Below are positions 7,609-31,485 of a DNA stretch of 64,000 nucleotides, piece by piece (within the stretch, counting starts at the first letter, position 1; each line of letters begins with the position of its first letter). The translations under genes were made by a program, and so were the position numbers. Origin of the DNA: Clostridia bacterium (GTDB lineage: Bacteria > Bacillota > Clostridia > Christensenellales > CAG-138). Location of the stretch: assembly GCA_017545535.1 (NCBI GenBank), contig JAFWMS010000021.1, positions 62,001-126,000 on the forward strand, written 5' to 3'. A model generated the notes under the pieces. That model was not told where the DNA came from and did no database searches. It saw only the letters and a program-made list of their open reading frames with translations.

Positions 7609-7892
7609 AGAAATGCATCCTGGGCCTGAAGGCCGTTTGTGACGATTGCGGCGCCTGTGAGGACGATCGCTGCGAGCTTGACCCAAACAAGCTGTGCGAC
7701 AATTGCTATAAATGTCTGGAGATCACCGAATCCTATCGGGAGATCCCCATCGGCCGGGTGCTGATGGACGGGAGCGACAGCGGGACGCTGTACGTGTTGG
7801 ACCCCAACGAGCAGATGGAGCCGGAGATGGACCTTACGGAAGATCAGGGGGATTCGACTGGCTCTCCGGACGATCTGGAGTGGGAGGAATAG
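7605..7892 (+). CDS. small Cys-rich protein, unknown function
   Basis: A 95-residue protein coupled by ATGA overlap to the PLP enzyme. Eight cysteines lie in the first 37 residues, at about 4, 12, 15, 18, 23, 31, 34 and 37, with two CxxCxxC patterns (CDDCGAC, CDNCYKC). The C-terminal half is acidic (DLTEDQGDSTGSPDDLEWEE). The cysteine pattern would suit a zinc or Fe-S site, but I do not recognise a named family. The last 59 nt overlap the 3' end of the convergent recombinase gene. Confidence 0.65.
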   Translation: MKKCILGLKAVCDDCGACEDDRCELDPNKLCDNCYKCLEITESYREIPIGRVLMDGSDSGTLYVLDPNEQMEPEMDLTEDQGDSTGSPDDLEWEE

Positions 7893-8937
7893 GATCATCC
7901 CGCAATTTGATATATTTGGTCGCCTGACGCCGCCGTTCCTCCTGGATGGCGGCGTAGTGCTTCCGGGTGGTGTTCACGTCCTTATGACCCAACACGTCGG
8001 CCACTAAATAGATATCGCCGCTCTCCTGATAGAGCATGGTGCCGTAGGTGCTGCGCAGCTTATGGGGCGTGATCTTCTTCAGCGGCGAGGCGATCCTGGC
8101 GTATTTCTTCACCAGATTCTCTACGGCGCGAGCGGTGATCCGCTTTCGCTGCAGGGAGAGGAAGAGGGCGTCTTCGCTGCCGGGCATGGGAGCTATGAGC
8201 TCCCGCTGTTCCAAATAGGTCAAAAGTGCGTTTCTGACCTCTGGCCCGAAGGAGAGCATCTCCTGATTGCCGCCCTTACGGGTCACGACGAAGGCGTCGG
8301 TGGAAAAGTCCACGTCGTCGATATCGATGCCCACCAGCTCGCTGATACGGATGCCGGTGCCCAAAAACAGGGTCAAAATGGCTGTATCACGGATTTTGGT
8401 GGCCTGATGAAAGGCCTTTTGCTTTTCCGTCAGCCCTTTTCCGGCTTCGGCGATGTCCAAAAGATCGGCCACCTCGTTGGCTTCCAGGCGGACGATGGCT
8501 TTTTCGTGGATTTTCGGCGTATCCACCAGGGAAGCGGGGTTGTTTTTGATAAGCTCCTGGCGGTGATAGTACTTAAAAAATGCCCGAATTGCGGACAATT
8601 TTCGCGCTTTTGCCCGCTCGTTGTTCTCCCGTTCCCGCTCGTCTTCGCCTACGTAGAGGGAGACGTGCTCCAAAAACAGCTCGATATCCAGGGCTGTGAT
8701 CCGATCCAGGTCCTCCAGCGTCAGAGAGGCAGGGGCCTTTCCCTGACAGGCTTCCACCTGTTCCGTACAGAACTTGAAAAAGTTTTTTAAATCGATGGCG
8801 TATCCGTACCGCGTCAGGATGCTGGTTTGCAATTCCATGGCGCGAAAATACAGACCGGCAAACTTAGGGAGCTCCGAAAGCACCGATCGAAGCTTCAGCG
8901 TGTAATCTTTTTTCCGTTGGAGGGGGTAGTCGCTCAT
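7834..8937 (-). CDS. XerS-like tyrosine recombinase
   Basis: A 367-residue tyrosine site-specific recombinase. Catalytic residues are visible: Arg in GTGIRISELVGI, Lys in TRKGG, HKLRSTYG (His-x-x-Arg), His in VLGHKD, and the nucleophile Tyr in TTRKHYA. The long N-terminal SAM-like domain resembles streptococcal XerS more than the roughly 300-residue XerC/XerD. The ATG at 8937 is chosen because translation upstream would need a TTG inside the inverted repeat at 8951-8992. SD signal is weak (CAGG). No phage or transposon genes surround it, so a chromosomal dimer-resolution role is plausible but inferred. Its 3' end overlaps the convergent Cys-rich gene. Confidence 0.9.
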   Translation of the reverse strand: MSDYPLQRKKDYTLKLRSVLSELPKFAGLYFRAMELQTSILTRYGYAIDLKNFFKFCTEQVEACQGKAPASLTLEDLDRITALDIELFLEHVSLYVGEDERERENNERAKARKLSAIRAFFKYYHRQELIKNNPASLVDTPKIHEKAIVRLEANEVADLLDIAEAGKGLTEKQKAFHQATKIRDTAILTLFLGTGIRISELVGIDIDDVDFSTDAFVVTRKGGNQEMLSFGPEVRNALLTYLEQRELIAPMPGSEDALFLSLQRKRITARAVENLVKKYARIASPLKKITPHKLRSTYGTMLYQESGDIYLVADVLGHKDVNTTRKHYAAIQEERRRQATKYIKLRDDPIPPTPDRPESQSNPPDLP

Positions 8938-8950
8938 AGCCTGAATTTTA

Positions 8951-8992
8951 AAACAACTATTCGTTAAAGACAAGTTTAACGAATAGTTGTTT
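8951..8992. repeat. perfect 18-bp inverted repeat with 6-bp spacer, candidate recombinase site
   Basis: The left arm AAACAACTATTCGTTAAA (8951-8968) is the exact reverse complement of the right arm TTTAACGAATAGTTGTTT (8975-8992), separated by GACAAG. It lies 14 bp upstream of the recombinase start codon and 28 bp after rnhA. Two AT-rich arms around a 6-bp centre are the layout of a tyrosine-recombinase core site such as dif. It could instead be an operator, or an AT-rich terminator for rnhA (only about four U residues follow). Confidence 0.7.
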
Positions 8993-16056: not shown

Positions 16057-16132
16057 GGGGCATTAGCGCAGTTGGTAGCGCGCCACAATGGCATTGTGGA
16101 GGCCAGGAGTTCGACTCTCCTATGCTCCACCA
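16057..16132 (+). tRNA. tRNA-Ala (GGC)
   Basis: A 76-nt cloverleaf with encoded CCA. The acceptor GGGGCAT pairs with ATGCTCC and includes the G3-U70 pair diagnostic for alanyl-tRNA synthetase. The anticodon stem CCACA/TGTGG encloses loop ATGGCAT, giving anticodon GGC. T-arm: AGGAGTTCGACTCTCCT. Confidence 0.97.
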
Positions 16133-16170
16133 CAAACAAAACACCGCTATCCGGCGGTGTTTTTGTTTGT
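16132..16170 (+). terminator. palindromic terminator after tRNA-Ala
   Basis: Arms ACAAACAAAACACCG and CGGTGTTTTTGTTTGT form a long hairpin followed by a U-rich arm. It is nearly identical to the hairpin after the tmRNA gene (31089-31128). Confidence 0.8.
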
Positions 16171-16182
16171 ATGGAAAATGAT

Positions 16183-16264
16183 GGGGAGTCGAACTGGACA
16201 TGGTTGTGAATTGAGTGCCCCTTCGCGAATCCGAAAACGAGTGTTCGGCTCTCGTATGCTTCCA
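16183..16264 (+). repeat. degenerate tRNA-3'-end-associated element (copy D)
   Basis: It begins with GGGGAGTCGAACTGG, an inverted copy of the tRNA-Ala T-arm. It contains TTGTGAAT (compare TAGTGAAT and TGGTGAAT in copies B and A) and ends with GTTCGGCTCTCGTATGCT, a diverged copy of the tRNA-Ala 3' end. The internal stems of the better copies are lost. It lies directly beyond the tRNA terminator. Confidence 0.6.
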
Positions 16265-16282
16265 TTTCTCGATCCGTTGCGA

Positions 16283-18914: not shown

Positions 18915-18940
18915 GGGATGCGGAATTAGGATTCGATTCG
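18915..18940 (-). repeat. second copy of the tRNA-Gln 3' end (copy A')
   Basis: On the minus strand, AATCGAATCCTAATTCCGCA closely matches the tRNA-Gln 3' end (TTCGAATCCTAGTTCCGCA). It lies just past copy A and looks like the remnant of another tandem unit. Confidence 0.6.
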
Positions 18941-18963
18941 CGCTATGGGCTTGTATGAAGCCG

Positions 18964-19061
18964 GGGGACGGAACTTGGATTCGCCTTCGCCTCACGGCTC
19001 GGTCGGGGTTCGGCTCTGAACGTCCACTGGACGTTCATTCACCACCGAACCCTTCGAATCC
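18964..19061 (-). repeat. tRNA-3'-end-associated structured element (copy A)
   Basis: Read on the minus strand: outer stem GGATTCG/CGAATCC (inverted copy of the tRNA-Gln T-arm), second stem GGGTTCGG/CCGAACCC, joint TGGTGAAT, hairpin GAACGTCC-AGT-GGACGTTC, joint AGAG, and a small hairpin GCC-GTGA-GGC. It ends with a copy of the tRNA-Gln 3' end (CGAATCCAAGTTCCG). Same architecture as copies B and C, with different stem sequences. It fills most of the 344-nt gene-free stretch 18770-19113. Confidence 0.75.
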
Positions 19062-19076: not shown

Positions 19077-19114
19077 AACAAAAATGAGGCACGCGATTGT
19101 GCCTCATTTTTGTT
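19077..19114 (-). terminator. palindromic terminator after tRNA-Gln
   Basis: Perfect 16-nt arms AACAAAAATGAGGCAC and GTGCCTCATTTTTGTT around GCGATT, immediately downstream of tRNA-Gln on the minus strand. Confidence 0.85.
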
Positions 19115-19187
19115 GGCTGCGGAACTAGGATTCGAACCTAGACAATACGAGTCAGAGTCGTAGGTGCTGCCATTACACAATTCCGCA
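19114..19187 (-). tRNA. tRNA-Gln (CTG)
   Basis: A 74-nt cloverleaf with encoded CCA. The acceptor TGCGGAA pairs with TTCCGCA. The anticodon stem TACGA/TCGTA encloses loop CTCTGAC, giving anticodon CTG. The U1-A72 pair is typical of tRNA-Gln. T-arm: CTAGGTTCGAATCCTAG. Confidence 0.95.
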
Positions 19188-19381
19188 ACAGCTTTTTCGA
19201 GAAATCCCGAGATGCCGTCCGTCTGAGTGATAACACCCGCCTCTCGGCAGGTGGTCTAGCTGTGATGAGCCTCAGCCTTCCCGTCGTGGCGGGCCTGACA
19301 TCCTCTCGATCAACGCGCCTTTCCGTATTCACTCTGTGGGTTTATCACTAAAAACGTAACGCACACCGCAGGATTTTCGTA
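19188..19381 (-). other. structured intergenic stretch between tRNA-Val and tRNA-Gln
   Basis: 194 nt with no credible reading frame but strong foldback potential on the minus strand: CACCTGCC-GAGA-GGCGGGTG (GNRA-type loop), CCCG-CCACGA-CGGG, and a long-range AGTGATAA/TTATCACT helix that could compete with the first hairpin. I could not match it to a named RNA family. Confidence 0.4.
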
Positions 19382-30821: not shown

Positions 30822-30924
30822 GTGGAGGTGGGGAGAGTCGAACACTCGCCTGCGGGCTCGCTCAGGTCACAGCTCTGAGGCCCCACTGGGGCCTCATTCA
30901 CTACTGTGACCAGTTCGACTCTCC
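30822..30924 (-). repeat. tRNA-3'-end-associated structured element (copy B)
   Basis: Minus strand: outer 12-bp stem GGAGAGTCGAAC/GTTCGACTCTCC, second stem GGTCACAG/CTGTGACC, joint TAGTGAAT, hairpin GAGGCCCC-AGT-GGGGCCTC, joint AGAG, then a small GCC/GGC hairpin. It ends with a 22-nt exact copy of the tmRNA 3' end (30822-30843 equals 31130-31151). Distal unit of a tandem pair; with copy C it fills the 345-nt gene-free stretch 30783-31127. Confidence 0.8.
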
Positions 30925-30935
30925 GCCTCAAAAAA

Positions 30936-30973
30936 CCAAAAGAAAACCACCCATATGGGTGGTTTTCTTTTGG
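30936..30973. terminator. 38-bp perfect palindrome between element copies
   Basis: The half-sites CCAAAAGAAAACCACCCAT (30936-30954) and its exact complement (30955-30973) abut without a loop. It occupies the place that the terminator has behind the tmRNA gene, and probably served as the terminator of the neighbouring unit. Confidence 0.7.
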
Positions 30974-31077
30974 TGGAGGTGGGGAGAGTCTCTTCTCGGC
31001 CTCGACGGCCTCGGTCAGGGCGCGGGAAAACAGTCCACTGGACTGTTTTCTGACACGCGCCCAGTTCGACTCTCCCC
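30971..31077 (-). repeat. tRNA-3'-end-associated structured element (copy C)
   Basis: Minus strand: outer stem GGGGAGAGTC/GACTCTCCCC, second stem GGGCGCG/CGCGCCC, hairpin AAAACAGTCC-AGT-GGACTGTTTT, small hairpin GGCC-GTCGA-GGCC. It ends with a 20-nt exact copy of the tmRNA 3' end (30971-30990 equals 31128-31147). Proximal unit of the tandem pair behind ssrA. Confidence 0.8.
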
Positions 31078-31088
31078 TTACCCATTGT

Positions 31089-31128
31089 ACAAACAAAAAC
31101 ACCGCACATAGGCGGTGCTTTTGTTTGT
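31089..31128 (-). terminator. palindromic terminator after the tmRNA gene
   Basis: Arms ACAAACAAAAACACCGC and GCGGTGCTTTTGTTTGT around a 6-nt loop, ending at the tmRNA CCA. Very similar to the tRNA-Ala terminator. Confidence 0.8.
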
Positions 31129-31485
31129 GGTGGAGGTGGGGAGAGTCGAACTCCCGTCCGAGAACATGATGACCCAACTTTCTACGAGCGTAGCCGTCGT
31201 ACAAGTATTCCCCTTGCGGCGCTCCCAACGGCGGGATCGCCGGTCCGGTAGCTTCATAAAGTCCGGTCCGGGGCAAAGCTTACCCGGGTTCGTTCCCTAT
31301 CCTAAATGACGCCCGTGTCTGAGACGATAGGTCTTCTCAGGCGGACGCTGTCACGCGCTTAGGCAGCGACAGGAAGTGCGTTGTAGTTGTCTGTTATGTT
31401 TAAACAGGTCCCGCTTTTAACGAAGCTCGGGGCTTCGGCTCGCTTATCCGGCCCTCACTATCCCCGTCGAAACCATTTCACCCCC
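31128..31485 (-). ncRNA. ssrA: transfer-messenger RNA
   Basis: A 358-nt tmRNA for ribosome rescue. The acceptor GGGGGTG (5') pairs with CACCTCC, with the G3-U70 alanine identity pair and encoded CCA. The 5' domain has the characteristic ATGGTTTCGACGGGG, and the T-arm is GGGAGTTCGACTCTCCC. The tag frame ends in TAA and reads approximately DNYNALPVAA after the tRNA-borne alanine, possibly with one extra Thr codon first. smpB, whose protein partners it, is 10 bp upstream. Two partial copies of its 3' end follow as repeats C and B. Confidence 0.96.

Follow-up and report, generated by a model that had tools for sequence, protein, structure and literature searches.

Small structured units with a shared core turn over at the 3' ends of tRNA and tmRNA genes in a genus of Clostridia

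The 3' ends of tRNA genes are classic insertion sites of mobile DNA, and the known elements that use them are large and bear an integrase. Islands and prophages at tRNA and tmRNA 3' ends occupy the same site as the units described here and likewise restore it through a carried copy, but they are kilobases long, encode an integrase and contain no inverted copy of the target, whereas the present units measure ~150 bp and carry no integrase. Integron cassettes are similar in other respects, as they are small units in arrays that change their order and gain members beside a fixed site, and their folded palindromic site (attC) is kept by structure rather than by sequence. Unlike integron cassettes, the present units dock at any tRNA end, have arms that match the host tRNA and bring a terminator as their payload. 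The core boxes of attC read RYYYAAC (inverse) and GTTRRRY (direct) (PMC3053210), whereas the unit arms end in GAAC and begin with GTTC (GTTCRA instead of GTTRRRY, the fourth base being tRNA C56), and the units of type C, described below, lack the right-hand GTT box. The GTAG- and CGTC-tagged palindromes of REP/RAYT systems (PMC3733652) are also small and interspersed, and GTAG does precede the inner hairpin in many copies of the present family, but the T is replaced in about one third of the copies and the units target tRNA ends. GTAG REPs are reported to occur mainly in gamma-proteobacteria. The BOX elements of pneumococcus (PMC3049150) are similarly modular, non-coding and folded, with a variable number of modules and unclear mobility, but by our own reading they are neither targeted to tRNA ends nor equipped with arms copied from a target. 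Overall, the array described here behaves somewhat like an integron but fails one or more of the tested defining features of integrons, REP/RAYT systems, MITEs, retroelements and Rfam families.

The window analyzed here comprises 64,000 nucleotides from a Clostridia bacterium and includes a tmRNA gene (ssrA; 31128-31485, minus strand) whose 3' end, GTTCGACTCTCCCCACCTCCACCA, recurs in two downstream units located on the same strand, unit C (31077-30971) and unit B (30924-30822). Proceeding away from the gene, the order is a terminator-like palindrome, unit C, a perfect palindrome and unit B. The first palindrome (31089-31128) begins directly after the CCA end and opens cassette C, which continues with a left arm formed by the inverted tmRNA T-arm (31064-31077), a core of a variant type with the inner joint TGTCA/C (30996-31062) and a closing direct copy of the tmRNA 3' end that includes the CCA (30971-30990). 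The second palindrome (30935-30974) crosses the CCA/TGG and serves as the terminator of cassette B; the preliminary description had put it at 38 bp, but it is perfect over 40 bp (20+20). It is followed by a left arm of the same inverted type (30913-30924), a core of the main type (AGTGAATGA ... TCAGAGC; 30846-30911) and another closing copy (30822-30843), with all of these features lying on the minus strand. The claims that exact tmRNA 3'-end copies close both units and that inverted T-arms begin them were both borne out, as the closing copies are exact over 20 nt in C and 22 nt in B, while the inverted arms extend over 14 nt and 12 nt, respectively. Reading frames across the tmRNA array are incidental and the ~150-bp units carry no integrase gene. 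Two additional tails are present in the window. Copy A lies behind tRNA-Gln(CTG) (19114-19187, minus strand) and, as had been reported, it is real and of the same layout: a terminator-like palindrome flush with the tRNA-Gln CCA (19078-19113), a core (18987-19052) and two decayed copies of the tRNA-Gln end (18918-18986), all on the minus strand. A fourth, decayed unit was missing from the copies named earlier and is located behind tRNA-Ala(GGC) (16057-16132, plus strand), where a terminator, an inverted arm, a truncated core and a degenerate tRNA-end copy occupy 16133-16266 of the plus strand. The single fold previously assigned to A, B and C stands as far as the layout is concerned; the AGTGAA/GA joint does not extend to C, since its inner joint is TGTCA/C. 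The same window also encodes a 6S RNA between tRNA-Val and tRNA-Gln (19200-19377, minus strand) and a 379-aa XerS-like tyrosine recombinase (7834-8973, minus strand), whose best score is to XerS, below the curated cut-off. Likely orthologues of this recombinase are found in most genomes of the genus, and no link was seen between it and the units.

All three copies fold stably, with z-scores of -6.3, -7.1 and -6.5, and none of 200 shuffles was as stable. A covariance model of 66 positions was built from ten genomic copies; 93% of the cells in its alignment are paired, 13 of the 21 pairs exhibit changes on both sides, and none of 500 shuffles of these ten copies did as well on any of five measures. 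A DNA search with unit B located ~11 places at E<0.04 in the 2.5-Mb genome, most of them behind tRNA genes, while the model yielded 16 matches at E<1e-3, of which 14 are directly behind a tRNA or tmRNA gene of the same strand, compared to a chance expectation of ~0.01 by our own estimate (44 genes, 100-nt windows, one strand). Thus, the check by covariance model came out in favor of the earlier proposal. Within the genus, copies were present in 12 of 12 genomes at 6 to 22 per genome. Copies in other families are scattered, and in the order 16 of 297 genomes, from four families, contain them. Copies elsewhere in the order are again often located behind tRNAs (the tmRNA in another genus and tRNA-Trp, -Tyr or -Ala in others), and almost all of the matches listed from a pattern scan of GTDB genomes belong to rumen and gut Clostridia. 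The core sequence, including its unpaired motifs, is conserved across bacterial families. An Rfam search at both gathering and permissive thresholds returned only chance-level scores, in agreement with the earlier statement that no named family fits. The units had no match in the phage and plasmid records searched, and no description of such tails was found in the literature searched, which left out most subscription papers. The cassettes seem to match no described element family, a view that we regard as provisional.

Across the family, the order of parts is the CCA, a terminator palindrome that is usually flush with it, a short spacer, the inverted 3' end of the host tRNA, the core and the direct 3' end of the host tRNA. 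Contrary to the earlier delimitation, the terminator palindrome is part of what is exchanged, and the arms match the host tRNA, leaving the core alone as the family signature. For 100 units with sufficient upstream sequence, the distance to a same-strand tRNA 3' end is 34-88 nt in 60 cases and at most 700 nt in 88, although some of these loci were fetched because of their matches, so the unbiased figure for tRNA ends is the 14 of 16 given above. The direct arm and its own tRNA share 15.5 of 18 positions, compared to 9.3 for other tRNAs, and its own tRNA is strictly the best match in 75 of 87 cases; the tRNA 3' end is thus restored as it is by tRNA-targeting integrative elements, and because every unit carries a direct copy, the tRNA remains intact however many units are added. 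Decay has gone further in the inverted arm (10.8 of 14 positions with its own tRNA versus 8.9 with others; own strictly best in 34 of 87). In 6 of 41 tails, most clearly those of tRNA-Val and tRNA-Leu in relative G003, the palindrome continues through the CCA into the tRNA in exact register, which gives the inverted arm the appearance of a tRNA-end copy made by folding back. The junctions between the core and the tRNA-end copy vary by a few nucleotides.

Comparison of close relatives, which had been suggested as a check on the idea of an inserting element, revealed turnover and reordering of units at tRNA and tmRNA ends; it should be noted that the relatives are draft assemblies and that the present genome is in 43 contigs. 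Between sister species, the tRNA genes are identical in the median, and the tails have median identities of 70-84%. Behind the tmRNA, the present genome (G000) has C followed by B, while G005 has B followed by C, and unit B is identical over 169 nt between the two even though the flank is only ~94% identical. The changes specific to the tRNA-end copy of C stay with C, which places the B/C exchange point within the shared CTCCCCACCTCCACCA, and ordinary recombination between repeats could use this point. Following C, the G005 array continues with a stretch containing a 47-codon reading frame, a third B-like unit and the shared flank. This 47-codon stretch (L263, contig G005:C1; ~500-650 nt behind the tmRNA) is possibly a cargo or a remnant of an old flank. 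Two relatives, G008 and G010, have no unit within 420 nt behind the tmRNA. The units behind tRNA-Ser(gct) are permuted between G007 and G011, while G000 and G005 each have a single unit there. At both tRNA-Ala(cgc) and tRNA-Glu(ctc), one species has an extra tRNA-proximal unit ahead of the first unit of its relatives, which would represent gains, with loss elsewhere as the alternative. At tRNA-Ser(gga), the terminator and flank are common to G000 and G007 but the core type differs, and a core with the stem GATCGCGG occurs behind the tmRNA, tRNA-Ala(ggc) and tRNA-Trp in different species, each time with arms that fit the respective tRNA.

The preliminary description had assigned the element to tRNA ends, which is correct for 14 of the 16 matches but not exclusively so, as unrelated palindromic repeats also contain the core. 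In other Clostridia, such repeats were found both with and without it (L125, on the same contig; L109/L147; L078/L110), and these empty/filled pairs exhibit no visible target-site duplication, the insert replacing 1-3 nt. The insert brings different flanks in this setting: a GCGAAGC-like box precedes the core in 44 of 65 copies outside of tRNA ends and in 0 of 34 copies at tRNA ends. The host repeats constitute a second, abundant palindromic family of gut Clostridia, of the CCTTCCCCTTGAGGGGAAGGTGTCAGCC...GATGAGG type (L078, L110, L109/L147, L125, L187, L191). A third core context, also away from tRNAs, has a GGGTTCGGC-TTT-GCCGAAC hairpin before the core and GACGAGCGTCGA after it (L072:1917, L086:1069, L111:1494, L114:3451 and L131:5871). 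Cores also occur on phage-like IMG/VR contigs (L191:347-412 and 2037-2102; L187:4984-5047 and 8638-8701), where they lie in the repeat context among structural genes for portal, major head, tail fibre and endolysin proteins. Phages are a possible vehicle for the spread of the core.

Stems that serve an RNA are expected to contain G-U pairs on the transcribed strand far more often than A-C mismatches. Among 114 distinct copies, and with the T-G column of the joint excluded, the core stems contain 22 G-T versus 24 A-C mismatches, while control tRNA stems from the same loci contain 100 versus 9 (Fisher p 6.5e-9, which is indicative only, as the relatedness of the copies is ignored). The covarying stems of the preliminary description are thus confirmed as covariation but not as the signature of an RNA, because the covariation is strand-symmetric and points to folded DNA instead. 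Equal maintenance of pairing on both strands is as expected of folded DNA or of palindromes corrected arm-from-arm. The AGTGAA/GA joint had also been considered as a k-turn, an idea abandoned after this test pointed to DNA.

We propose that tRNA and tmRNA 3' ends serve as docking sites for the units, which would be non-autonomous DNA-hairpin cassettes, a reading to which we give about an even chance. The units turn over, arise next to the tRNA before older ones and are arranged differently in sister species, and their cores are exchanged within constant flanks, with core pairing conserved strand-symmetrically. As the inverted arm looks like a fold-back copy, one strand of a unit could fold as a dumbbell, with the terminator hairpin at one end, the core opposite and a duplex of tRNA ends between them. 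The arms would arise when the host tRNA end is copied in a fold-back manner at both palindromes, the units would move by recombination between tRNA-end copies, and the core may be recognized as folded DNA by a recombination or replication enzyme acting in trans. Several observations run against this reading: the apparent B/C exchange point falls within tRNA-end repeats that ordinary recombination could use, many inverted arms are decayed and the in-register palindrome through the CCA is limited to the 6 of 41 tails, and profile searches of the 12 genomes link no enzyme to the units. The more specific proposal that a dedicated enzyme moves folded single-stranded dumbbell cassettes into tRNA 3' ends, copying the host-tRNA end, is one that we hold only tentatively.

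Template switching together with recombination is the strongest rival, albeit a rather unlikely one in our estimation. It dispenses with a dedicated enzyme: template switching and slippage during replication would have their hot spots at tRNA ends and terminator palindromes, and ordinary recombination between tRNA-end copies would yield and homogenize tandem tails. The B/C exchange point within a shared tRNA-end repeat, the core junctions that vary by a few nucleotides, the strand-symmetric and near-perfect pairing expected from palindrome correction, and the failure of the enzyme searches in 12 genomes to find a partner gene are all consistent with this explanation. It is harder to reconcile with unpaired core motifs kept across bacterial families and with cores in unrelated repeats that have clean empty versions, both of which call for a specific recognizer or donor. 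We consider improbable an integron-like system in which the T-loop of tRNA genes is the primary site and a tyrosine recombinase attaches folded hairpins to it. Cassette-style reordering, insertion next to the tRNA and a hairpin (inverted arm, core, direct arm) bounded by inverse and direct GTTC boxes all agree with such a system, and generic tyrosine recombinases are present in all 12 genomes of the genus; however, none of the 12 genomes has an integron integrase (TIGR02249) over the cut-off, the T-loop box GTTCRA violates the GTTRRRY rule and the markers put the B/C exchange outside of the GTT box. A strict integron crossover at G^TTCGA is contradicted for B/C by the markers in the tRNA-end copy of C. 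Several other candidates were rejected as well. The RAYT/Y1 transposase (PF01797) was detected in 2 of 12 genomes, excluding the present one, so mobilization of the REP/RAYT kind lacks its transposase in 10 of the 12 genomes even though all 12 carry units. Reverse transcriptase (PF00078) was found in 2 of 12 genomes, including the present one, where nothing connects it to the units, and the other 10 carry units without it, which argues against group II introns and retroelements. MITEs were set aside because the empty/filled pairs show no target-site duplication.

Even less probable is a functional structured RNA made by read-through behind tRNAs, for example for termination or 3' processing. 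The stable fold, strong covariation and constant orientation to the tRNA would suit such an RNA, but G-U is not above A-C in the core stems, unlike in the tRNA stems of the same loci, the units lie beyond a terminator and are absent behind the tmRNA in two relatives, and the core also resides in unrelated repeats. It is highly improbable that the units are scars of ordinary tRNA-targeting islands or phages that integrated and were later lost: repeated tRNA-end copies are indeed the usual footprint of an attachment site, but scars would have no conserved core, inverted arms or terminator at fixed spacing, and would not permute as units. Of the original proposal of a small non-coding element that regenerates tRNA-like 3' ends, we retain the element itself, given its tRNA-adjacent copies and turnover, but we read its covariation as a mark of folded DNA and do not retain its exclusivity to tRNA ends. 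The strand-symmetry test also serves as a warning that covarying stems in a repeat family can be a sign of folded DNA and not of RNA. Cassettes only 150 bp long that restore the 3' end of a tRNA, supply a terminator, fit their host tRNA and are reordered in an integron-like manner would be a new way of building on essential genes, and if a dedicated enzyme does move them, tRNA genes would be general docking platforms of an integron-like system that operates without an integron integrase.
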